Shown here one piece after another: positions 18,355 through 31,176 of a stretch of 43,799 nucleotides of DNA. The notes under the pieces are model-generated. The model saw nothing but the letters and a program-made list of their open reading frames with translations, had not been told where the DNA came from and searched no databases. Where the stretch lies: contig JAITRO010000137.1 in assembly GCA_031288335.1 (NCBI GenBank), positions 1-43,799 on the forward strand, given 5' to 3'. Each line of letters opens with the position of its first letter. Position 1 is the first letter of the stretch. A program made the position numbers and the translations under genes. Source of the DNA: Synergistaceae bacterium. Lineage in GTDB: Bacteria; Synergistota; Synergistia; Synergistales; Synergistaceae.

Positions 18355-18407
18355 AAAACCGGAGATAAACTAGAGGATTCCCTTAGTTTGTCTCCGGTTT
18401 TGTTTTT
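18355..18407 (+). terminator. Strong intrinsic terminator after the DUF2292 gene
   Basis: An 18-bp stem (18355-18372 with 18384-18401, one T-G wobble) beginning AAAACCGGAGA and closing TCTCCGGTTTT has an 11-base loop and is followed by TTTTGTTTTT. It should separate the DUF2292 unit from the nifH-like operon unless antitermination occurs. Confidence 0.85.
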
Positions 18408-18507: not shown

Positions 18508-18526
18508 ACCTTTTGTACTAACAGGT
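18508..18526 (+). promoter_or_regulatory. Operator-like dyad 1 (ACCT-N11-AGGT)
   Basis: A 19-bp dyad, extended by AC/GT on the outside, lying 231 bases before the nifH-like ATG. It shares the 15-base word TGTACTAACAGGTGT (18514-18528) with dyad 2, where the word occurs on the opposite strand. The pairing of two matching sites suggests binding by one dimeric regulator. I do not recognise the regulator, and no candidate regulator gene lies in the island. Confidence 0.55.
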
Positions 18527-18662
18527 GTCTTGCCGATATATCCTACATTTCACTAACCGCCCATATTTCCAGCAAAGACTCGCCATTACGTTTTCATAAC
18601 AGTTAAATTTCCTCATCGATGTATTTCAAGCTGATACGCCGCTTAACATCAATCCTTTGAAC

Positions 18663-18681
18663 ACCTGTTAGTACAGCAGGT
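18663..18681 (+). promoter_or_regulatory. Operator-like dyad 2 (ACCTG-N9-CAGGT)
   Basis: Second 19-bp dyad, centred 155 bases after dyad 1 and ending 76 bases before the nifH-like ATG. The word ACACCTGTTAGTACA (18661-18675) is the exact reverse complement of a word in dyad 1. A weak TTGAAC (18657-18662) at its left edge could be a -35 element, which would place the dyad in the promoter spacer, but no good -10 is visible. Confidence 0.55.
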
Positions 18682-18756: not shown

Positions 18757-19632
18757 ATGGCAAAAAAAATCAAACAAATCGCAATCTACGGCAAAGGGGG
18801 CATCGGCAAGTCCACGACTACATCAAACCTCAGCGCGGCGCTGTCGATCTCCGGCTACAGGGTCATGCAGTTCGGCTGCGATCCGAAAAGTGATTCCACT
18901 AACACGCTCAGGAATGGACAGTACATACCAACTGTTTTGGACACGCTTCGTGAGAAGAACATCGTCAAAACGTCCGAGGTGGTTTTCGAGGGGTTCAACG
19001 GCGTCTACTGCGTGGAGGCCGGTGGGCCGGCTCCGGGAGTGGGCTGCGCCGGGCGGGGGATCATCACGGCGGTGCAGCTCTTCAAGCAGCAGAATACTTT
19101 TGAGGAGCTCGAACTGGATTATGTGATTTATGACGTCCTCGGCGATGTCGTCTGCGGGGGGTTCGCGGTTCCGATTCGTGAGGGGATAGCGGAGCACGTG
19201 TTTACCGTTTCATCGGCTGACTTTATGGCGATATACGCAGCCAATAATCTCTTCAAGGGCATACATAAGTATGCCAATAACGGTGGCGCGCTGCTGGGAG
19301 GAGTTATAGCCAACTCCATCAATCAGCCGTATTCGAGGAATATCATAGACGACTTCGTGAGAGTGACTAAAACACAGGTTGTGGAGTACGTTCCCCGTTC
19401 CGTGACGGTCACGCAGAGCGAGCTTCAGGGGAAAACTGCCATAGAGGCGGCGCCGAACTCGGTACAGGCTAGTGTTTACATGTCACTCGCGGCAAGAATA
19501 GCTGAACATACCGAGTCCAAGGTCCCGTCGCCGCTGGAGACAGCAGAACTCAGAGACTGGGCTGCAAGATGGGGCGAACAGCTCCTCGCTTTGGAGGCCG
19601 GAGAGGTTCAGGGGATCGCGGAGAGAATTTAA
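18757..19632 (+). CDS. Nitrogenase iron-protein-like reductase (NifH-like)
   Basis: Homodimeric [4Fe-4S] ATPase that should pass electrons to the NifDK-like complex encoded next. The 291 residues contain the P-loop GKGGIGKST (12-20), the switch sequence CDPKSDST (41-48), and the bridging-cluster ligands C97 ([12 protein letters not shown]) and C133 ([11 protein letters not shown]). The arginine that is ADP-ribosylated in NifH is also kept (R100). The motif [12 protein letters not shown] is, to my recollection, typical of group IV nitrogenase-like proteins rather than classical NifH. The ATG has GGAGAGAGGAAG just upstream. It leads the operon-like series with the NifD-like gene 63 bases later. 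BchL is less likely because no pigment genes are present. Confidence 0.93.
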
Positions 19633-19695: not shown

Positions 19696-21210
19696 ATGGC
19701 AGCAAAGACACCGTTCGAATCATTCAAGATCAATCTCGAGAATGACACGAGCCCAAAGCGCGAGGACAGCCTCGGTACGATCAAGGCCTACTCTGGGAAA
19801 ATCAGCAAGTTGGCGGAGGATTTCAAGGCAGACAAAAAATTGAAGTGGTATGACCGCAAATTCGAGCAGGCGAGCCAGTGTCTCTTGACTCAGGTCGTCA
19901 ACAGGATCTTGAGCATCAGGGATTCTGCCCTGATAATACATGGCCCTGTCGGTTGCGCTCAGGCGTCATACGGCTATCGCGAGTTTTACCGCAATCTGCC
20001 GCCGCAGCTGCAAAGACCCGATTTCGAGCTGCATATACTCAGCAGCAATCTGACAGAACAGGACATCGTTTTCGGCGGAGAGAGAAAACTGCGCCTCGCC
20101 ATAGAGAGCTGCGTTGAGCGCTACAACCCAAAGAGTATAGTCATTGCCACATCATGTGCGTCCGGAATCATGGGTGACGACATCGAAGGCATAACGGACT
20201 CGATTCAGCCATCCATCGAGGCGAGGATTGTGCCTATACACTGCGAAGGCTTCCGCTCGGAGATATCGCAGTCCGCGTTCGACGCGAGTGCCCACGCGAT
20301 AGTCAAGTATCTCGTAAGAGAGCCCAAAAAGAAACAGCCTGACCTGGTCAATATCATCGCGCCTTTCAGCGTGACATGGGCCGACCGCGTGGAGCTGACC
20401 CGCCTTTTCAATAAGGTCGGACTGCGCCCGAGGTTCATACCGGATTTTGCCACGACTGGCGAACTGGCCGAAATATCAGAGGCTGCCGTCACAGCCCCAA
20501 CTTGCGCGTCGTACGGTTTTTATCTGCAAAACGCGCTTTACGAGAAATATGGCGTGCCATATTTCAGGGAGCCGGCGCCGCTCGGCATCGAATATTCGGA
20601 GATGTGGTTCCGCAGCATAGCAAAATACACCGGCAGGGAAAAGGAGATAGAAGCGCTTATAGAAGAGGAAAAAGCATTTGTTCTGCCGAAGCTCGAGGAG
20701 TTCAAGAAGCGGTTCAAAGGGAAGGAGTCCAGCATTTTCGTGGCGGCAGGTCAGGCCAGGGCCATTTTCATCCCCAAATTCGCGGCAGAACTTGGCATGA
20801 ACGTGGCGGCTGTGAACACGCTCGAACTCGACCCATTCGTGGTGGATGAGCTGCAAAAGGTCTACGAGAAAGTCGGGGATGATTTCGAAGTGCATGTGTC
20901 AGACGTGCAGCCATTCGAGCAGAGTCACCTCATGAACAAGCTGAAACCCGATCTTTACACCGGATGTCCATTCATGGGATTGTACAAGCGGGAGGGCAGC
21001 CATGTGCGAAATCACTCTTTCAGGTCCGATTTTTCGGTGCAGTCGAATCAGTTTGCCTTCAGAGGGCTGTTGAACTATGCCTATATTATCCAGCGCGCGC
21101 TGAATAACCCCTCCCTGAATCGGACGCTGCACGACAGGCGGCCATCGCCGTACAAGAAATGGTGGTATGAGCAGGAAAATATTATGGCTTACGCTGCCAA
21201 CGACGAATAA
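19696..21210 (+). CDS. Nitrogenase-like alpha subunit (NifD-like)
   Basis: Catalytic subunit homologue, 504 residues. The three P-cluster cysteines are present as C62 (QASQCLL), C87 (GPVGCAQ) and C154 (ATSCASGIMGDDIE). C270 (APTCASYGF) and H440 (RNHSFRSDF) align with the FeMo-cofactor ligands C275 and H442 of Azotobacter NifD. R95 matches the active-site Arg96. The segment EGFRSEISQSAFD places D196 where NifD has the proton-donating His195, so dinitrogen reduction is unlikely. AAGGAGGTG precedes the ATG. The pattern fits a reductase carrying a NifB-type cluster, as in methylthioalkane reductases; the substrate is unknown. It is encoded between the NifH-like and NifK-like genes. Confidence 0.92.
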   Translation: MAAKTPFESFKINLENDTSPKREDSLGTIKAYSGKISKLAEDFKADKKLKWYDRKFEQASQCLLTQVVNRILSIRDSALIIHGPVGCAQASYGYREFYRNLPPQLQRPDFELHILSSNLTEQDIVFGGERKLRLAIESCVERYNPKSIVIATSCASGIMGDDIEGITDSIQPSIEARIVPIHCEGFRSEISQSAFDASAHAIVKYLVREPKKKQPDLVNIIAPFSVTWADRVELTRLFNKVGLRPRFIPDFATTGELAEISEAAVTAPTCASYGFYLQNALYEKYGVPYFREPAPLGIEYSEMWFRSIAKYTGREKEIEALIEEEKAFVLPKLEEFKKRFKGKESSIFVAAGQARAIFIPKFAAELGMNVAAVNTLELDPFVVDELQKVYEKVGDDFEVHVSDVQPFEQSHLMNKLKPDLYTGCPFMGLYKREGSHVRNHSFRSDFSVQSNQFAFRGLLNYAYIIQRALNNPSLNRTLHDRRPSPYKKWWYEQENIMAYAANDE

Positions 21211-21225: not shown

Positions 21226-22578
21226 TTGACAGTCCAATCCATTGAAACTAAAAATTCGACGCTCGAAAGAGAAAGCAACCAGAAATGCCTGGAGTCGCCC
21301 AAGTACAGCTGTGCACTCGGAGGAGCTCTTGGCGTCATCTCCAACATCGACAGGGTCATACCTATTCTGCACACTGGGCAGGGATGCGGCTCAAATCAGC
21401 TCCTCAGCTTCAGGCAGGGAGGCGGCAATCAGGGGGCGGGGTACATGAGCGGTTTGATGACGCCGTCCTCAAACCTCGCCGAAAAAGAAGTTGTGTTCGG
21501 TGGGGAGAAACGGCTGGAGGATGAAATAAGGGCGGCTATCGAACTCATAGACGGCGACGCCTACGTCGTGGCAAACGGCTGCATCGCCGGAATGATCGGA
21601 GACGACATCGCGGCGGTGGTCGGGAAGTTCGCGAACGAAAAAACGCCGGTCGGGTATGTGAATTCCAGTGGTTTTGCCGGCAACACATGGTATGGGTACG
21701 AGGAAACTTTTATCTCGCTCATCAACCAATTTACGGAAGCTCAGCCCTTAATCAAAAATAGAGTGAACATTCTCGGGTTCGTTCCCTACCAGGACGTATT
21801 CTGGAGAGGAAACCTGACGGCTCTAGGGGATTCCCTGTGTGCGGCGGGGCTGGACGTAACTCAGGTGATAGGTGATTTCAGCGGATTGGACGGCATTAAA
21901 AGGCTCTCTTCGGCTGAGCTTACCATAGTCGTTTCGCCGTGGGTAGGACTAAGAACAGCACAAGAGCTGGAAAAGAAATACGGCATTCCGTACATATCTT
22001 TTCCCAATATTCCAGTGGGGCCGCGCGACACAACCGAATTCATCCTGACCGTCGCAAGGACTTTGAAACTGCCGAAAGAGGGCGTGACTAATTACGTCGA
22101 CGAGCAGGAAAAGCGCGCTTATTACGAACTTGATATAGCGGGGGACATCTGCGCACAGTTTGCCTCCGCCCTCCCGTTTGCCATAACGGCCAACGCGGCG
22201 ACTTCAGTCGGGATAACGCGATTTTTAGTGAATGAGGCAGGCTTCACTCCGATAGTCGTAGTTGTGAATGATGATCCGCCTCTTGAAGTTCGCGACGTTA
22301 TTTTGGACAGACTGAATACGCTCGACAACGACGTAAGAACGAATATCTTTTTCGAGTCAGATTCTTACGCGATCAGAAAGATACTGGACAACTTTTACTT
22401 CAGGGTGATATTGGCCAGTTCCCAGGAGAGATTTTCGGCGCAAGAGGCGAATCAAATTCATTTGAGCGTGACGTTTCCATCTTTCGAACGTCTCGTCGTC
22501 AATCGTACCTACGCCGGATACGGAGGCGGGATCGCTATCTTGGAAGATTTCTTGAGCAAATTCATAATGCCTTATTAG
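21226..22578 (+). CDS. Nitrogenase-like beta subunit (NifK-like)
   Basis: Partner of the NifD-like protein, 450 residues. The beta-side P-cluster cysteines are C29 (KYSCALGGALG), C54 (TGQGCGSNQ) and C119 (VANGCIAGMIGDD). The conserved stretch VVFGGEKRLEDEI follows the second one. It lacks the long N-terminal extension of Azotobacter NifK, as is usual for nitrogenase-like proteins. The start is TTG 21226 with AGGGAGGAG seven bases upstream, 15 bases after the nifD-like stop. It is clearly beta-like rather than a second alpha subunit, so the enzyme should be a heterotetramer, unlike the CfbD homodimer of F430 synthesis. Confidence 0.9.
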   Translation: MTVQSIETKNSTLERESNQKCLESPKYSCALGGALGVISNIDRVIPILHTGQGCGSNQLLSFRQGGGNQGAGYMSGLMTPSSNLAEKEVVFGGEKRLEDEIRAAIELIDGDAYVVANGCIAGMIGDDIAAVVGKFANEKTPVGYVNSSGFAGNTWYGYEETFISLINQFTEAQPLIKNRVNILGFVPYQDVFWRGNLTALGDSLCAAGLDVTQVIGDFSGLDGIKRLSSAELTIVVSPWVGLRTAQELEKKYGIPYISFPNIPVGPRDTTEFILTVARTLKLPKEGVTNYVDEQEKRAYYELDIAGDICAQFASALPFAITANAATSVGITRFLVNEAGFTPIVVVVNDDPPLEVRDVILDRLNTLDNDVRTNIFFESDSYAIRKILDNFYFRVILASSQERFSAQEANQIHLSVTFPSFERLVVNRTYAGYGGGIAILEDFLSKFIMPY

Positions 22579-22676
22579 TCAAATTCATTTTAAGCGATTG
22601 GTTGCGCCTTTTCAATTGTACAGCATTTTGGGGTTGAGGGCGCAGCCTGCTTTAGGAACAAAAGGATGTGAGATTT

Positions 22677-23441
22677 ATGACAGCGAAATTAAAATCCTTG
22701 TACACCAAGAGCATTGCGGTGGTTTTATTCTTTGTCCTCTGGGATTCCTTGGCACGGTTCGGCCTTGTCGACACCTTTTTGCTTCCCACAGTAACTTCGA
22801 TGGCGGAGGCGGCGTGGGAAATGATGAAGACCGGCGAGCTTTTCATCCATATCGCCTTGAGCCTTAAGCGTACCGGGCTGGGTTTCCTTGTCGCTATTTG
22901 CGTGTCCGTGCCATTGGGTATATTGATGGGATGGTTCCAAAAACTGGAAGAATATCTGGATCCACTGCTGCAAATATTCCGTAATACATCGGTGCTGGCG
23001 TTGTTTCCGGTATTCATCTTGGTATTCGGCCTTGGAGAGGTGTCAAAATCGGCCATAGTCTTCTGGGGCTGCATGTGGCCGTCTTTGCTCAACACTATCA
23101 GCGGAGTCAAGGGAGTGGACCCGTTGCTGATAAAGTCCGCGCGATCGATGGGCATATCGGTGCCCATACTGTTTCAAAAAGTGATACTGCCGGCGGCGCT
23201 GCCCGAAATCATGACCGGAATACGGCTCTCCGCCGGCGTTGCCGTAATAATTTTAGTGGCCGCCGAAATGCTGGGAGCTACCAGAGGGCTGGGTTATTTC
23301 ATCTTTTATGCCCAACAGAAATACGCGATACCGGATATGTACGCCGGCATAGTCACTATATCGATTTTGGGCGTTCTTATAAACTTCCTGCTGGTAAAAC
23401 TGGAAAATCACATCGCGGCTTGGAAGAGATATCAGGTTTAG
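22677..23441 (+). CDS. ABC transporter permease, nitrate/sulfonate/taurine type
   Basis: Membrane subunit of an SsuC/TauC-like importer, about 254 residues with around six helices. The EAA-type loop that contacts the ATPase is visible as ARSMGISVPILFQKVILPAALPEIMTG (about residues 155-182). The ATG at 22677 has AAAGGA ten bases upstream; a GTG at 22668 would add three residues and overlaps that site. It lies 98 bases after the NifK-like gene in the same direction, followed by two binding proteins and the ATPase. This ties import of a small, probably anionic or sulfur-containing organic compound to the reductase; the ligand is not known. Confidence 0.9.
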   Translation: MTAKLKSLYTKSIAVVLFFVLWDSLARFGLVDTFLLPTVTSMAEAAWEMMKTGELFIHIALSLKRTGLGFLVAICVSVPLGILMGWFQKLEEYLDPLLQIFRNTSVLALFPVFILVFGLGEVSKSAIVFWGCMWPSLLNTISGVKGVDPLLIKSARSMGISVPILFQKVILPAALPEIMTGIRLSAGVAVIILVAAEMLGATRGLGYFIFYAQQKYAIPDMYAGIVTISILGVLINFLLVKLENHIAAWKRYQV

Positions 23442-23475: not shown

Positions 23476-24480
23476 ATGATGAAGAAATTTTTAAGCTTTT
23501 TCACAGATATAATAATTCTACTACTGATAGTTGCGGCGGCTGCGGATTTTTCAGCCGAAGGCGCCTCGGAGCCCAAATTACAAAAAATCCGCATCCCGGA
23601 TATGTACGACCCGACCTGTTTATATCTGCCTTATATTGCCGACTCTCTAGGCTACTTCGAGGAAGAAGGCACAAAAGCCGTGTTCACCGGTGTCATCCCT
23701 GCCGGCCAGCATGTCGCGGCTGTTGTTGCCGGCACCAATGACGTCGGAGCGATGCACATAAACAGAACTATTGTTGGCATCGCCGGCGGCGCGAAGCTGA
23801 AGGTTGTGGTAGCTGAAGCGGAGACCACGAAGGAATTCCCTCACATGGAGTATATTGCCCTGGAGACGTCCGATATAAAGGATCCGAATGATCTGTCCGG
23901 CAAAAGGGTGGGTGTGACTTCCGTCGGTGGATGTAATGAATACACACCTTACGAGTGGCTGAAAAAAGCGGTCGCTATCGACGATCCTCGCGGAAAATTC
24001 GAGTTTGTGATCGTTCCTCCCGGCAATCTGGAGGTTGCCCTGCGCACCCGTGAAGTCGACGTAATTGGAGTTCACGGTCACCCATACGACATATTCGAGC
24101 GCGGAGGCGTTAAAGTGGTGTTCGATGATTATGACGTCTGGGCCAATGTCGGCGGCGCGGCTCCATACTATTTCAGGGAGGATTTCATCAAGAAAAACCC
24201 TGACGCCGTCAAAGCTTTCGTAAACGCGATATCCAGAGCAGCGGAGTGGACCAACGAGCATCAGCAGGAAGCGAGGGTGTTTCAGGCAAAACGTCTGAAC
24301 TTGGAGCCAAAACAGGTCGCGGTGCTCTACTACGTTGCCGACGGAATAATAAAACCGGAGACTGTTCAGATGTGGGCCGATCTGCTGCTCAAGTACGGCG
24401 AGATTAAAAAACCGGTGGATATCAGCAGAGTCTATACCAACGAGTTCAATAAGAACGCCAGGGATAAAGCTCAAAAATAG
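23476..24480 (+). CDS. ABC substrate-binding protein, NMT1/SsuA-like (paralogue 1)
   Basis: Exported solute receptor of 334 residues for the adjacent importer. A signal peptide is visible (MMKKFLSFFTDIIILLLIVAAAADFSAEG, hydrophobic core about residues 10-24). The mature part has the periplasmic-binding fold of the NMT1/THI5-like group, with IADSLGYFEEEGTKAVFTG and a central DVIGVHGHPYDIFERGG. It is a tandem paralogue of the next gene, sharing long blocks such as AGTNDVGAMHINRTIVGIAGGAK. The ligand cannot be deduced; the family takes sulfonates, taurine, nitrate and pyrimidine precursors. Confidence 0.9.
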   Translation: MMKKFLSFFTDIIILLLIVAAAADFSAEGASEPKLQKIRIPDMYDPTCLYLPYIADSLGYFEEEGTKAVFTGVIPAGQHVAAVVAGTNDVGAMHINRTIVGIAGGAKLKVVVAEAETTKEFPHMEYIALETSDIKDPNDLSGKRVGVTSVGGCNEYTPYEWLKKAVAIDDPRGKFEFVIVPPGNLEVALRTREVDVIGVHGHPYDIFERGGVKVVFDDYDVWANVGGAAPYYFREDFIKKNPDAVKAFVNAISRAAEWTNEHQQEARVFQAKRLNLEPKQVAVLYYVADGIIKPETVQMWADLLLKYGEIKKPVDISRVYTNEFNKNARDKAQK

Positions 24481-24530: not shown

Positions 24531-25532
24531 GTGAAAAAGATCTCGGGTTTTAATTTTCTTCTCGTTATCATAGCAATGACGCTGCCGTTGGTTACGGACA
24601 CAGCGGGGCTGGCGGCGAAAAGCGCGGAGGAGCGCGAGTTATATGAGATCCGCATACCTGATACTTACGATCCAACAGGAGTTTACACACCATATCTCGC
24701 CGATGAATTGGGTTATTTCAAAGAGGCGGGAATCAAGCCCATATTCACCGGCGTCATTCCGCCTGGTCAGCATGTGGCCGCAGTTACCGCCGGCACCAAC
24801 GATGTCGGTGGAATGCATATCAACAGAACCATCGTGGGCATAGCCGGAGGGGCAAAGATCAAGTGTGTGGTCGCGCAGTCCGAGACAACGGCGGATTTTC
24901 CGCACATGGAATTTATAGTCCTCGAAAAAAGCGGGATCAAGGAACCTCAAGACCTTTTCGGCAAAAAAGTGGGAGTGACTTCTGTCGGTGGGTGTCATGA
25001 ATTTACGCCATACGAATGGCTCAGGAAATACACTGGAGTCAACGATCCACGAGGAAAATTCGAGTTTGTATTGGTTCCGACCGGCAATGAGGAAACCGCG
25101 CTCCGCACTGGCGAAGTCGACGTCGTAGGTTTTCACGGACATCCAATCGACATATTTGAGCGCGGAGGAGTCAGAGTGCTGTTCGACGATTATGTCGTGT
25201 GGGGCAGTGTTGGAGGGGCGACGCCATTTTTTTGCCGAGAGGACTTCATAAAAAGGAACCCCGAGGCTGTTCGGCGTTTTGTGGCGGCCATGACAAAAAC
25301 CGGCAATTGGCTCAACAATCACCAGGAAGAGGCTAAGCTGGTATACGCAAAACGCATGGGACTTAATCCAAATCAAATCACATTGATGTACGAGGCTCCC
25401 GACGGAATCATCGAGCCCGAATCAGTGCAAATGTGGATGGATCTGACACTCAAATACGGCGAGATCAAAAAGGCGATACCGCTCGATCAGGTTTACACAA
25501 ACGAGTTCAACGAGTACGCCAAAGGCAATTGA
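24531..25532 (+). CDS. ABC substrate-binding protein, NMT1/SsuA-like (paralogue 2)
   Basis: Second receptor, 333 residues, a tandem duplicate of the preceding gene: both share IFERGGV and R(A/T)GEV-type blocks, and a conserved SVGGC(H/N)E(F/Y)TPYEWL segment. A signal peptide is present (FNFLLVIIAMTLPLVTDTAGLAAKS). The start is GTG 24531; the only nearby ATG is followed directly by a stop. Two diverged receptors feeding one permease could widen the substrate range. One pairing to note is His-rich versus Tyr-rich substitutions in the putative ligand pocket (VGFHGHPID against VGVHGHPYD). Confidence 0.9.
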   Translation: MKKISGFNFLLVIIAMTLPLVTDTAGLAAKSAEERELYEIRIPDTYDPTGVYTPYLADELGYFKEAGIKPIFTGVIPPGQHVAAVTAGTNDVGGMHINRTIVGIAGGAKIKCVVAQSETTADFPHMEFIVLEKSGIKEPQDLFGKKVGVTSVGGCHEFTPYEWLRKYTGVNDPRGKFEFVLVPTGNEETALRTGEVDVVGFHGHPIDIFERGGVRVLFDDYVVWGSVGGATPFFCREDFIKRNPEAVRRFVAAMTKTGNWLNNHQEEAKLVYAKRMGLNPNQITLMYEAPDGIIEPESVQMWMDLTLKYGEIKKAIPLDQVYTNEFNEYAKGN

Positions 25533-25654: not shown

Positions 25655-26581
25655 ATGGCTGAAGCATTGGTTATAGGAAAAATAGGAATTGACGGTGCCG
25701 GCACTAAACCTTTGCCGTCGGATACGACACTTGAAAGGCTGAACAAAAATATAGTTATGGAAAATATCAGCCGGGTCTATAACATCAAGCACGGCAGAAA
25801 AAACGAGCGTTTCACCGCAATAGAAAATTTCAACCTTGAGGTCAGGGACGGAGAGTTTCTCTCTATCGTGGGGCCAAGCGGCTGCGGCAAATCGACACTC
25901 CTCGATCTGCTCGCCGGCCTCAGCCAGCCGGATACCGGGAGCATATTCATAGATGGGAAGAGAGTCACAGGGCCTGCGCTCAACAGAGGGTTTGTAATGC
26001 AGGGTTACGCGCTTTATCCGTGGAGAACGGTCATCAAAAACATACAATTCGGCCTCGAGCTTCAAAAAATGAAAAAGAAAGAGCGTAATCGCGTAGCCTT
26101 GGAATATCTGGGGCTTGTCGGCTTATCCGGCTTCGAAAACAGGTATCCGTACGAGCTGTCTGGAGGCATGAAACAAAGGGTAGCTATAGCTCGCGCTCTT
26201 GCTTATGACCCCAAAGTTCTTCTAATGGACGAGCCATTTGCCGCCGTGGACGCTCAAACGCGCGAACTCCTGCAGGAGGAATTGCTTCGTATATGGGAAA
26301 AAACGCACAAAACCGTTATTTTCATAACTCATAGCATAGAAGAAGCGGTTTTCCTCGGGCAGCGCGTCGCCGTAATGACATCCAGTCCAGGTTCTATAAA
26401 AGAAATCATAGACGTTGACCTCCTTGTTCCCAGGAGATCCGGAGACGCCAAAGAATCCCTGCATTTTAATCGGATGGTGCATAAAGTGTGGAACTTACTT
26501 CACAACTACAGCGGGAAGGAAGATAAATCGCTAAGACATGAGAGCGCCTGGGGTTGCCGGAATATCGAAAAAATAGGCTAA
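25655..26581 (+). CDS. ABC transporter ATPase, SsuB/TauB-like
   Basis: Energy-coupling subunit of the importer, 308 residues. Walker A GPSGCGKST starts at about residue 73, the signature LSGGMKQR is near 169, Walker B is VLLMDEP near 190, and the switch histidine is ITHSIEEA. The N-terminal 34 residues before VMENISRVYN are unusual for the family, so ATG 25757 is an alternative start. The 25655 ATG is favoured by GAGGAGG upstream. It is separated from the receptors by the IS-like remnant and followed 34 bases later by the NifX-like gene, which keeps the cofactor gene in the transporter operon. Confidence 0.92.
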   Translation: MAEALVIGKIGIDGAGTKPLPSDTTLERLNKNIVMENISRVYNIKHGRKNERFTAIENFNLEVRDGEFLSIVGPSGCGKSTLLDLLAGLSQPDTGSIFIDGKRVTGPALNRGFVMQGYALYPWRTVIKNIQFGLELQKMKKKERNRVALEYLGLVGLSGFENRYPYELSGGMKQRVAIARALAYDPKVLLMDEPFAAVDAQTRELLQEELLRIWEKTHKTVIFITHSIEEAVFLGQRVAVMTSSPGSIKEIIDVDLLVPRRSGDAKESLHFNRMVHKVWNLLHNYSGKEDKSLRHESAWGCRNIEKIG

Positions 26582-26615: not shown

Positions 26616-27032
26616 ATGTCAAGGAGAATAGCTGTTGGAAGCACTGACGGCGTCAATATCGACACTCATTTTGGGAAAACGGAGATTTTCCACATTTATG
26701 AAATACCCGACAACGGAGAGCCGTCTCTGGTCGAAAAACGCGTTGTGCAAAGTCTGGTGAATGACGAATGCTCCCACACTGGCCTTGATGGTATCATCAA
26801 AAAACTAAGTGACGTCGAGACCGTTTTGGTGAGACAAATAGGGGAACATGCAGCTGATTTGCTCGCAACTGAGGGGATAACGTCGGTGAGTATTGCTTGT
26901 CCGGTGGAGCGGGCTGTCAAACGTTACGTCCAGCGGGGAAAACTTTTGACGCCGCCGGTATTGGAAAGTCACAGACATGACAAAGAATATTCGAGAGAAG
27001 ATTGCCCAATGCGCGCCATGAAGAAAATATAG
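26616..27032 (+). CDS. NifX/NafY-like iron-sulfur cofactor carrier
   Basis: Dinitrogenase iron-molybdenum cofactor biosynthesis-type protein, 138 residues. In nitrogenase systems this fold binds NifB-co or FeMo-co during transfer to the apo-enzyme. The N-terminus RRIAVGSTDGVNIDTHFGKTEIFHIYE and the segment HAADLLATEGITSV are typical. A His/Cys-containing tail (SHRHDKEYSREDCPM) is unusual. It follows the importer ATPase by 34 bases. With no nifB, nifE or nifN in the window, it supports a complex cofactor in the NifDK-like protein, assembled with proteins encoded elsewhere. Confidence 0.88.
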   Translation: MSRRIAVGSTDGVNIDTHFGKTEIFHIYEIPDNGEPSLVEKRVVQSLVNDECSHTGLDGIIKKLSDVETVLVRQIGEHAADLLATEGITSVSIACPVERAVKRYVQRGKLLTPPVLESHRHDKEYSREDCPMRAMKKI

Positions 27033-27072
27033 CCTGGCTTGATGCTGTAAGTAAATGAAAGGAGAATTTTCG

Positions 27073-27708
27073 ATGATGTCGTTTATTCAAAAAAAAGCTT
27101 TGCGAAAATATGTTTTGGTGATTTTTATGCTTTTATCAGGCACGGTGTTGGCGGCGAACCTGGCTTTCACCCACGAGGAGTCGGCGCTGACTGGTTTTTT
27201 GATAGACGAGCACTGCTTTACGACGAAACGCGAGGATCCAGGCGCGGATACCAGAGGCTGCAAGCTCATGGAGGAATGCCTCACGAGCGGGTATGGCGTT
27301 GCCGTTTTGCTGCATGACGGCACGTATAAATTTTATTTTTGCGACGGCAATTTCTTCACCAACTCGAAAGTCCGCGACGGCACAGGCGGCCAGAAGATCG
27401 CTTACGATTTCATCAAGGCTTCCACTAAAGAGAACTACCAGGCTGTGACGCTGAGGGGAAAACTGACGAATAAAAAGAAACTATCCAGCTCGGATTCGTC
27501 AGTTTTATATGAGGTGTTCGAGGTGAGATCCATTACTGAGGCCACCGCTCACGAAGCGGCAGGACTGCCCAAGGGCGTGCCCGAGGGACAGGAACATTCC
27601 GGGGCGGAGTCCAGCAGAGCAAAACCTCACGAAGCTAAGCCTCACGAGGTAAAGCCGCACGAGGCTAAGTCTCACGAAGAAGCCGATAAAGCGCCGCAGT
27701 ACGAGTGA
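27073..27708 (+). CDS. Secreted protein with conserved cysteines and His-rich tail
   Basis: Family not recognised. About 211 residues with a signal peptide (MMSFIQKKALRKYVLVIFMLLSGTVLAANLAF). The mature domain has paired cysteines (FLIDEHCF, RGCKLMEEC, YKFYFCDGNF) that could bind metal or form disulfides. The C-terminal tail is a four-fold KPHE-type repeat rich in His, Glu and Lys. The ATG 27073 is chosen because AAAGGAGA lies eight bases upstream; ATG 27055 would overlap that site. It comes directly before a copper ATPase, so an extracytoplasmic metal-binding or chaperone role is plausible. Function unknown. Confidence 0.75.
   Translation: MMSFIQKKALRKYVLVIFMLLSGTVLAANLAFTHEESALTGFLIDEHCFTTKREDPGADTRGCKLMEECLTSGYGVAVLLHDGTYKFYFCDGNFFTNSKVRDGTGGQKIAYDFIKASTKENYQAVTLRGKLTNKKKLSSSDSSVLYEVFEVRSITEATAHEAAGLPKGVPEGQEHSGAESSRAKPHEAKPHEVKPHEAKSHEEADKAPQYE
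27619..27678 (+). repeat. Four 15-bp tandem repeats coding for (A/V)K(P/S)HE
   Basis: Units at 27619, 27634, 27649 and 27664 encode AKPHE, AKPHE, VKPHE and AKSHE. They place one histidine and one glutamate every five residues in the tail of the secreted protein, a likely metal-binding array. Units differ by only a few bases, suggesting recent expansion. Confidence 0.85.
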
Positions 27709-27736
27709 CTGTATGTAGTGTAGGAGAAAATGGCAG

Positions 27737-30124
27737 ATGCGAGAGACAGCCTCGCTGAAAATATACGGAATGACCTGCACCCTTTGCTCAGTGGCGATCG
27801 AGGCCGGCGTCGAGAGGCTGGCGGGAGTTGATAAAGCGGAGGTGAGCTACGCCGCCGAGAAGGTGTTGGTGGAGTTCGATGCCGATCTCGTGACGCTTTC
27901 GGACATTCAGCGGGCGGTGAAGGGCCTCGGTTTTTCAGTGGACAAAGTTGAAGCTGACGAATTTTTCGCCAGCTCGAGCCGTGCCATGGCGGAACAGCGA
28001 AAACAGTTCATGTGGCTGATTGCTTCAGCCTTGTTGAGCCTGCCGATTTTTATATGCATGTTTTCCGAGGCGGCGGGGTTTTGCCATGCTTATTTCGACC
28101 CCGCCAGTCTGACGGCATGGGGCAAGTTTGCCGCCAGGGTCTCCTGGGAGCTGAGTTTCCTCCGCGACTGGCGGCTGCAGTTGTCGCTGGCGACGCCTGT
28201 GCAGTTCATCATCGGCGCGCATTTCTACCGCGGCGCCTACCACTCTTTGCGGGCGCGCGTCCTGACCATGGATGTCCTCGTCACCCTGGGATCGAGCGCC
28301 GCGTATTTCTACAGCCTCTACATTTGCCTGTCGCCGTACCAGGCCGTTCTCTACAAACTCGGCATGAAAAACCTGTATTTCGAAACTTCCACGACCATCA
28401 TCACTCTTGTCCTGCTGGGCAAATACCTCGAAAGCCTCGCGAAAGGGCGCATGTCCGAGGCCATCCGTGAATTGGTGGAGCTGCGCCCCAAAACGGCCAG
28501 GGTTATGAGAGAGGGCGCGGAGGCCTATATTCCCATTGAACAGGTGATCCAGGGTGATGTGCTGATTGTGAAGCCGGGCGAGAAGATCCCGGCGGACGGC
28601 GTGGTTTTGGACGGGCACTCCATGGTGGACGAGTCCATGCTCACTGGGGAGAGCCTGCCCGTTGAAAAACAGGAGGGGGATTTCGTTACCGGCGCTTCCG
28701 TCAATCAGTTCGGCACGTTCCGTTTCTCCGCCACGAAGGTGGGAAACGACACGAGGCTTGCGGAGATCATTCGCCGTGTGGAGGATGCCCAGAGCAGTAA
28801 AGCCCCCATCCAAAAGATTGTCGACAGCGTCTCGGCTCTGTTCATTCCCCTAGTGCTCGCGATCGCCGCACTGACGTTCGTGGTTTGGTTTTTCGTGATC
28901 TACAATGGGAGCCTGTTTGTGATCGACCGGGCCATTATATGTGCGGTGTCGGTGCTGGTGGTGTCCTGCCCCTGCGCGCTGGGGCTCGCGACGCCGGTTG
29001 CCATCATGGCTGGGCTCAGCTGGGGAGCCAAGAACGGCATACTGATCAAAAACGGAGAGGTTCTCGAAACCCTTCACAAGGTAAAGGCCGTGGTGCTGGA
29101 CAAAACGGGAACGATCACCAGGGGTGTCCCGGCTGTGTCCGACATTCTGCTGACGAAAGAAGGGGCCTCGCTCTACGGAGAAAACGAGGCACTGCGCCTC
29201 GCCGGCTTGGCCGAGAGCGCCTCCGAACACCCATTGGGCAAGGCTATTCACGCCAAAGCCAGAGAATTGGGCCTTTTGAGAGACGACGAGGACACCCTTT
29301 CGGACTTCGAGGCCGTTCCGGGGAAAGGCATCCTCTGCTCCATAACCGGGAAACGCGTCGCAGCCGGCAATCTGAGCTTCGTCTCCCAGCTCCTTGGCAT
29401 GGCGGCAATGACGGAAACTTTTGAGGACGTCGACTTTCAAAAAATCCACGCACGGGGACAGACGGCGGTGTTTGTCGGGATAGACGGGCTGCCCGTTGCT
29501 GCCATCGCCTTGGCCGATCAAGTGAAAGACCATTCCGCTCAGGCTGTGGCTGAGTTGGAGGCTCTTGGAGCGGAGGTCTTCATGCTGACCGGCGACAACC
29601 GGTGCGCGGCTGAGTCGGTGGCCCGACAGGTGGGCATACGCAACGTGCTTGCGGAAGTTCTGCCCGAGCGCAAGGCGGAGGAGATTGAGCATCTAAAGGG
29701 CTGGCGGGAGCCGCAAGCGCGGAACGCAAAAAAACGGGACGCGGAAGGACACAGCGTCGTCGCTATGGTGGGGGACGGCATCAATGACGCTCCAGCCCTC
29801 GTCGCCGCAGACATCGGCATCGCGGTAGGCGGCGGCACGGACGTCGCCATCGAGGCGGCCGATGTGGTGCTGCCCGGCAACGATCTGCTAGCTTTGCCTT
29901 CCGCCATACGGCTCTCCAAAAGGACTATCACAAAAATCCGGCAAAACTTGTTTTGGGCGTTTATTTACAACATCATCGCCATTCCAGTGGCTTTCACCGG
30001 GTATCTTAACCCTACAGTGGGGGCCGCCGTCATGGCACTCAGCTCCGTCTCAGTATTGCTCAACTCTCTGAGCCTGAGGCGCGCTGAGCCGCGCGAAGCG
30101 GAATCCGCGCTAAAGGGGCGTTGA
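27737..30124 (+). CDS. copA: Copper-transporting P1B-type ATPase
   Basis: Membrane pump of 795 residues that exports Cu(I) using ATP. It has one N-terminal heavy-metal domain (GMTCTLC, C14 and C17), the actuator TGES at about 303, the transmembrane CPC at 411-413, D455KTGT phosphorylation site, the SEHPLG histidine motif and GDGINDAP near 679. TM helices after the ATP domain carry FIYNIIAIP and MALSSVS, the YN and MxxSS patterns of Cu(I) pumps. An insertion ([17 protein letters not shown]) lies before GDGIND. It is followed by a SafE-like protein with a 4-base overlap. Whether it exports copper for detoxification or supplies a secreted cuproprotein is not clear. Confidence 0.93.
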
Positions 30125-31176
30125 AACACTTGAAAAGCCTTTATTATATGGAATTTCTCTCCTCCCTGGAGCGGGGCGCCGGTTATGGAATTTTGCTATT
30201 GTTCGGGCTTCTCGCCTCCATTCACTGCGTGGGCATGTGCGGAGGGCTTATATTGACGCAGACCCTGCGCGCGGACGACGGCAGGAAAATTAAAAATCTC
30301 CTGTTCGGCGCGAGTCTGTACAACGCCGGCCGCGTTTTTTCCTATACTTTGACGGGAGTTCTGACTGGCGGCGCGGGACAAGTCCTGAATTTTTCCGGCG
30401 CTTTCAAGGGGATTATTCCCATGGCGGGGGGAGCGTTCATGCTACTGATGGCCGTGAATCTGCTGGGGGATTTTTCGATGTTGCGGAAACTTCTTTTACC
30501 GATGCCCAAGAACCTCGCTAAATGCCTGTACAAAGGAGCCGGAGAGAGGGGAAAGAGTTATGGAAGGGAAAGTCGCTCCCTCTGGGTCGGCCTGCTGACG
30601 GGATTAATGCCCTGCGGGCCTCTGCAAATCGCCCAGGTTTACGCGTTTTCCTCCAGAAGCGCCTTTATCGGCGCCTTGTCCATGTTCGTGTTCGCAATAG
30701 GGACGACGCCAGCGCTGTTTTTGTTCGGCGTGTTCGGTGGAATGCTGGGCACGCGGTTCTCCAGGGGAATGACAAAAGTGAGTGCCGTCGTGGTGGGGCT
30801 CATGGGCTTGCTCATGCTCGAACGGGGGCTTGCCCTCTCCGGGGTCGCGTTGCCCGTCTCCGCGAAAAATTCCGGGGGTTTTGCCGCGGCGATCATGGAC
30901 AATAATATACAGCGCCTGAGAACAGAAATCTCCGCGTATGCCTATCCGTCCATTCAGGTCACAGCCGGCATCCCGGTGGAGTGGACGATCGTGCTGGCCG
31001 AGGAAAACTGCAACACTTGCAACAACGCCATCGAACTGCCTGCCTATAACCAAAGTGTGAAGCTGTCTGTGGGAGAAAACCTGGTGAAATTCACTCCTCT
31101 CGAAGAAGGCGAGTTTCTCTACACCTGCTGGATGGGCATGATTAAAAGTAAAATCTTCGTCCTTCCAGATCCGTAA
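30121..31176 (+). CDS. SafE-like membrane protein with cupredoxin-like tail
   Basis: Membrane protein of 351 residues in the sulfite-exporter/DsbD-like group, linked in many genomes to copper handling. The motif HCVGMCGG is in the first helix (about residue 37) and [16 protein letters not shown] in the fourth. After five to six helices the C-terminal 95 residues form a cupredoxin-like domain with [12 protein letters not shown] and the copper-site-like CWMGM motif. The start TTG 30121 overlaps the ATPase stop; ATG 30148 is an alternative. It may move or receive copper at the membrane together with the ATPase and the secreted protein. Confidence 0.82.

Follow-up and report, generated by a model that had tools for sequence, protein, structure and literature searches.

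A nitrogenase-like operon of a Synergistaceae bacterium with a D subunit from a sister clade of MAR: a putative [Fe8S9C] reductase for C-S cleavage of imported organosulfur anions

The open reading frame at 19696-21210 of the window, i.e. the whole stretch of 43,799 nt of Synergistaceae DNA that was analysed, is intact over 504 codons and encodes a protein of the NifD family, exactly where the original prediction had placed it. We tentatively (probability about 0.45) regard it as part of a group IV nitrogenase-like reductase from a sister clade of MAR, a putative [Fe8S9C] enzyme for the reductive C-S cleavage of an imported organosulfur anion. Slightly more tentative is the extension to an entire family found across phyla. 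Its members would hold [Fe8S9C] via a His at the nitrogenase position, combined with a conserved Cys in the ligand loop of MAR, and use this cluster to break C-S bonds in imported organosulfur anions, e.g. sulfonates.

The NifD-like protein matches Pfam Oxidored_nitro with 233.6 bits. Its curated scores stay far below the respective cut-offs for nifD (157.9 vs. 653.55 bits), VNFD (107.1 vs. 823.1 bits) and ANFD (71.2 vs. 873.8 bits). The best solved chain in the PDB is MarD (9fmg, E=1.1e-65). MarD is likewise the top fold match of the AlphaFold model (mean pLDDT 80, pTM 0.85; TM 0.80/0.86), and NifD chains rank behind.

The gene is part of one operon on the forward strand with the order H-D-K, a SsuABC/TauABC-type transporter and a NifX-like gene. 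The NifH-like Fe protein (18757..19632, 291 aa), the putative electron donor, reaches 401.1 bits with TIGR01287 nifH (cut-off 394.35) and 327 bits with Fer4_NifH. Its translation contains the P-loop GKGGIGKST and both cluster cysteine motifs. Downstream of the D gene the NifK-like partner subunit (21226..22578, 450 aa) matches Oxidored_nitro with 215.9 bits and, as best hit in the PDB, MarK (9d9u_C, E=1.9e-81). Its P-cluster cysteines sit in YSCALGG, GQGCGSN and ANGCIAGMIGDD. The transporter genes comprise a permease of the SaoP/TauC/SsuC family (22668..23441; NCBIfam SaoP 145, TauC 136 and SsuC 124 bits, each below cut-off), two substrate-binding proteins of the SsuA/NMT1 family (23476..24480, TIGR01728 SsuA_fam 89 and NMT1 73 bits; 24531..25532, 82 bits with either model; both below the SsuA_fam cut-off) and an ATPase of the SaoA/TauB/SsuB family (25655..26581; NCBIfam SaoA 253 and taurine ATPase 247 bits, below cut-off). 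The operon is completed by a NifX-like (Nitro_FeMo-Co) cluster-binding protein of 138 aa (26616..27032; Pfam PF02579 55.7 bits, NifX 36.5 bits), for which a PDB search returned no match.

Two inverted repeats are located upstream of the Fe protein gene, one of 23 nt with 87% complementarity and a 1 nt spacer (18355-18401) and one of 21 nt whose arms are 132 nt apart (18508-18681). An Rfam scan of the window and four homologous loci for sulfur or metal riboswitches yielded none at the operon. Downstream on the same strand, 27055-31173 encodes a putative exported protein containing cysteine, a P-type metal ATPase with an HMA domain and a membrane protein of the DsbD_2 family.

Residue equivalences were determined using hhalign, comparing a family profile (40 alignment rows, 34 distinct sequences, the others being 37-80% identical to the window protein) with four NifD sequences in local and global mode, and by MAFFT alignments with MarD. 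As a control, MarD was aligned to NifD with hhalign. This reproduced the cryo-EM-based assignments Trp195=Gln191, Phe199=His195 and Cys270=Cys275 and left MarD His429 off NifD His442, in agreement with the published structure (PMC12552129). The original prediction had assigned C270 to Cys275, H440 to His442, R95 to Arg96 and D196 to His195 of nitrogenase, and the first three assignments stand. C270 falls on Cys275 in the profile-profile alignment and on Cys270 of MarD in the MAFFT alignment, R95 is borne out as Arg96, and H440, placed by alignment only, coincides with His442 in local as well as global mode. D196, in contrast, is off by one, an error the prediction had itself foreseen: both modes place F195 on His195 and D196 on His196. 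The profile alignments of the family with NifD contain no gap between C183 and this site, and the shift probably arose from anchoring on a chance SQS/SQS match. Moreover D196 is not peculiar to this protein, as MarD (Asp200) and every group IV D protein aligned carry an Asp there as well. S191 is aligned with Gln191 and F426 with Lys426, the homocitrate anchor of NifD (PMC3464626), while C62, C87 and C154 fall on the P-cluster cysteines of NifD. Chemistry other than N2 reduction, which had been deduced from an Asp in place of His195, hence loses its stated reason but is nonetheless likely, since Gln191 and His195 are both lost.

In the phylogenetic tree the window protein and its relatives fall outside the MarD clade and form a separate clade sister to MAR (support 99/96; 99/99 for the MAR side). 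The MAR clade itself takes in one further protein from the window's genome. The relatives, whose group labels rest in some cases on the taxon at the centre of each search, are a Syntrophomonadaceae MAG (81% identity), a deltaproteobacterial MAG (76%; about 40% for others of the same class), a plasmid of Candidatus Chlorohelix allophototropha (67%), Bacillota (48-66%) as well as Methanoperedenaceae and other archaea of that class (40-45%). Altogether the clade is present in about five phyla. C270, H440, D196 and the P-cluster cysteines C62, C87 and C154 are each found in all 34 members, R95 in 32. The hallmark Arg428-His429 of MAR (Loop I) is replaced by Cys424-Pro425, each residue being kept in 32/34. 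About 15 residues past this Cys-Pro a clade-specific HxxRxD loop is located, in which the His (H440) and the Asp are invariant (34/34) and the Arg is present in 33. The position of Lys426 is occupied by F in 32/34, that of Gln191 by V, I or S and that of His195 by Y or F. At further active-site positions of MarD the clade has mostly T/S/N (Cys73), I/L/V (His194), mostly V/I/S (Trp195) and D/E (His375). R70, conserved in 34/34, stands where MarD has Gln74 and would, at the wall of the active site, suit an anionic substrate.

Several carriers hold additional nitrogenase-like genes. One Bacillota contig (L041:5050-7977) encodes a member of the new clade and, back to back with it, a probable true MarDK pair whose D subunit shares 67-69% identity with MarD. 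The NifE model finds 37 matches in G190 (the source of L041; 3.0 Mb) and 27 in G510 (L098; 3.8 Mb), two genomes of Bacillota type with an extreme expansion of nitrogenase-like proteins. The window's genome itself has five nitrogenase-like D/K pairs, on the window and on contigs C54, C184, C63 and C6 (L025-L028), none of them above a curated nitrogenase cut-off. Near most of these pairs there is an ABC transporter gene. On C54 the order is H, a cysK-like gene, K, D, a NifX-like gene and a SsuB-type ATPase.

The equivalents of Cys275 and His442, six P-cluster cysteines, the NifX-like neighbour and NifB in the genome make it likely that the NifD-like subunit carries a large nitrogenase-type cluster. 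The NifB-type gene is located on another contig of the window's genome (L029 3547-4437, 282.5 bits), and NifB was found in 6/6 other carriers checked. The M-cluster-like cofactor originally predicted is therefore retained in this general sense, but not as a strict M-cluster. No NifE above cut-off was found in 12/32 carriers, namely the window's genome (78% complete) and 11 of 31 others, and homocitrate synthase gave just partial matches below cut-off in the window's genome. Moreover MAR, the closest structure, holds [Fe8S9C] without Mo and without homocitrate. Since Lys426 is replaced by Phe, such an Fe-only cluster appears more likely than FeMo-co here, too.

The most likely candidate for the ligand at the far end of the cluster is H440, as it is invariant, aligned with His442 and kept in a Methanoperedens homologue that lost C424. 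In the AlphaFold model the loop that holds it has pLDDT values <50 (residues 425-441 and 443-448). Alternatively C424 could be the second ligand, with the role of MAR Loop I being kept and His exchanged for Cys, which would be compatible with C-S cleavage as well. Cys424-Pro425 indeed take the place of Arg428-His429, and several other group IV proteins have a His in the MAR-type ligand loop. However, the Methanoperedens homologue has an Ala at this position and retains the H440 motif, and the 32/34 conservation of C424 compares to 34/34 for H440 with its placement on His442 in both alignment modes. We thus consider C424 doubtful as the ligand. With H440 as the candidate ligand, the clade apparently anchors its cluster in another way than MAR.

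Evidence on the function comes from the neighbouring genes. Of the 18 loci read with enough flank, 12 have SsuABC-like genes within the cluster, covering about five phylum-level groups, a count made by hand from locus listings that are not independent of each other. A frequent gene order among the relatives is SsuB-SsuA-H-D-K-NifB-NifX-SsuC. SsuABC is absent from the archaeal loci L102-L105 and the Bacillota locus L041. A cysK gene adjoins the 81% homologue (L039), and metY is found near family members in the Chlorohelix locus (L054) and two archaeal loci (L102, L103); within the window no sulfur gene adjoins the operon. Cys275-bearing nitrogenase-like proteins were previously tied to O-acetylhomoserine sulfhydrylase and cysteine synthase, and among them none with His442 was reported (Dos Santos et al. 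2012, PMC3464626). Furthermore both MAR (PMC12552129) and isethionate reductase (PMC11423573) are nitrogenase-like and release sulfur by C-S cleavage, the latter along with a SsuCAB transporter. The transporter, the cysK/metY neighbours and these two precedents point to the import of an anionic organosulfur compound whose C-S bond would be cleaved reductively. No binding-protein model reaches its cut-off, and the cargo is a guess, with a sulfonate as the first candidate. Binding proteins of the SsuA/NMT1 type also transport thiamine precursors, nitrate and other compounds. In the PDB the two binding proteins matched only an unnamed exported protein (3qsl) and THI5, which gives no clue to the substrate. 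At L098:7759-8304 a gene for a ThiW-type thiamine-precursor transporter lies between binding protein and D subunit, another possible hint to the substrate.

A different function would be N2 reduction if the protein belonged to the group IV-A enzyme NfaDK of Endomicrobium proavitum and Heliophilum fasciatum, using a simplified cofactor made without NifEN. The termite-gut isolate E. proavitum, whose sole nif-like genes are NfaDK and which has no NifEN, takes up 15N2, and NfaDK is described as having all required ligands (PMC9147875). By description only, this resembles the clade with its equivalents of Cys275 and His442. The nflDK1 genes of H. fasciatum are located with nifB, nifH and nifX, like several loci of the clade, and the closest homologues stem from MAGs resembling termite-gut assemblies (gut origin read from isolate codes). 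The loss of both Gln191 and His195 makes N2 reduction less probable, though only to a degree, as 15N2 uptake has been reported with NfaDK (PMC9147875). Moreover 20 of the 32 carriers have nifE above cut-off, so they probably possess a conventional nitrogenase too, and sulfonate-type transporters with cysK/metY are odd neighbours for N2 fixation. Hence we consider this function unlikely, and the NifD-like enzyme probably does not fix nitrogen.

Two further explanations are weaker. One of the best-scoring curated models for the D subunit is NifE (163.9 bits), and a NifX-like gene adjoins, as might be expected for a scaffold for cofactor assembly like NifEN instead of an enzyme. Yet the NifE model has a cut-off of 505 bits, far above this score, aligned NifE has no counterpart of H440, and the operon contains its own NifH and a transporter but no second DK pair as recipient of the cofactor. 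As the clade is also sister to MAR, an enzyme, a scaffold function appears quite improbable. Even less probable, to the point of being negligible, is isethionate reductase itself, in spite of the similar set of nitrogenase-like HDK and SsuABC (PMC11423573). IsrD has only one of the three P-cluster cysteines and no equivalents of Cys275 and His442, all of which are present in the NifD-like protein; compared with that published description, this pattern rules out membership in the IsrD family. Isethionate is nevertheless a possible substrate of the system.

In the C-S cleavage mechanism we propose, the Fe protein (18757) would hand electrons under ATP hydrolysis to a D2K2 component whose D/K interface holds a P-cluster. 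The cluster of the D subunit would be a NifB-derived [Fe8S9C], probably free of Mo and homocitrate, anchored at one end by C270 and at the other most likely by H440, or alternatively by C424. The SsuABC-type transporter would import a small organosulfur anion, whose C-S bond would be cleaved reductively at this cluster, and the sulfur set free may enter cysteine or methionine synthesis.

MAR and nitrogenase use different loops, and the authors of the MAR structure were therefore unable to infer which His was the cluster ligand in the ancestor of the two enzymes (PMC12552129). This question becomes directly testable with a sister clade of MAR in which the His at the nitrogenase position is invariant. 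The clade is also relevant to whether NfaDK and other group IV enzymes truly fix nitrogen. If the proposed reaction is true, the chemistry of large clusters reaches a further class of substrates.

Compared to known systems, the window system is closest to MarHDK of Rhodospirillum rubrum (group IV-C, PDB 9fmg/9d9u), with which it shares the fold, the H-D-K set, the P-cluster cysteines and Cys270. MarD also has Phe at the His195 position and Asp200 at that of D196 and belongs to the sister clade, whereas identity of the D subunits is about 31-33%. Unlike MarHDK, the window system has the extra HxxRxD loop and a SsuABC transporter of its own, and Cys-Pro stand where MarD has Arg428-His429. NfaDK of E. 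proavitum and H. fasciatum, compared by description, is similar in being a group IV system with ligands reported complete, no NifEN, and nifB and nifX nearby. IsrBHDK with SsuCAB of Rhodobacter capsulatus likewise combines a nitrogenase-like HDK with a sulfonate-type ABC transporter, but in IsrD two of the P-cluster cysteines are missing along with both cofactor ligands, and IsrB differs from NifB. Mo-nitrogenase NifDK shares Cys275, His442, Arg96 and the P-cluster positions with the NifD-like protein; Gln191, His195 and Lys426, in contrast, are not kept in the latter, and identity is about 26% over the aligned profile. Taken together the comparison suggests that the clade is a variant within the known nitrogenase-like kind, apparently set apart by a testable difference in cluster anchoring.
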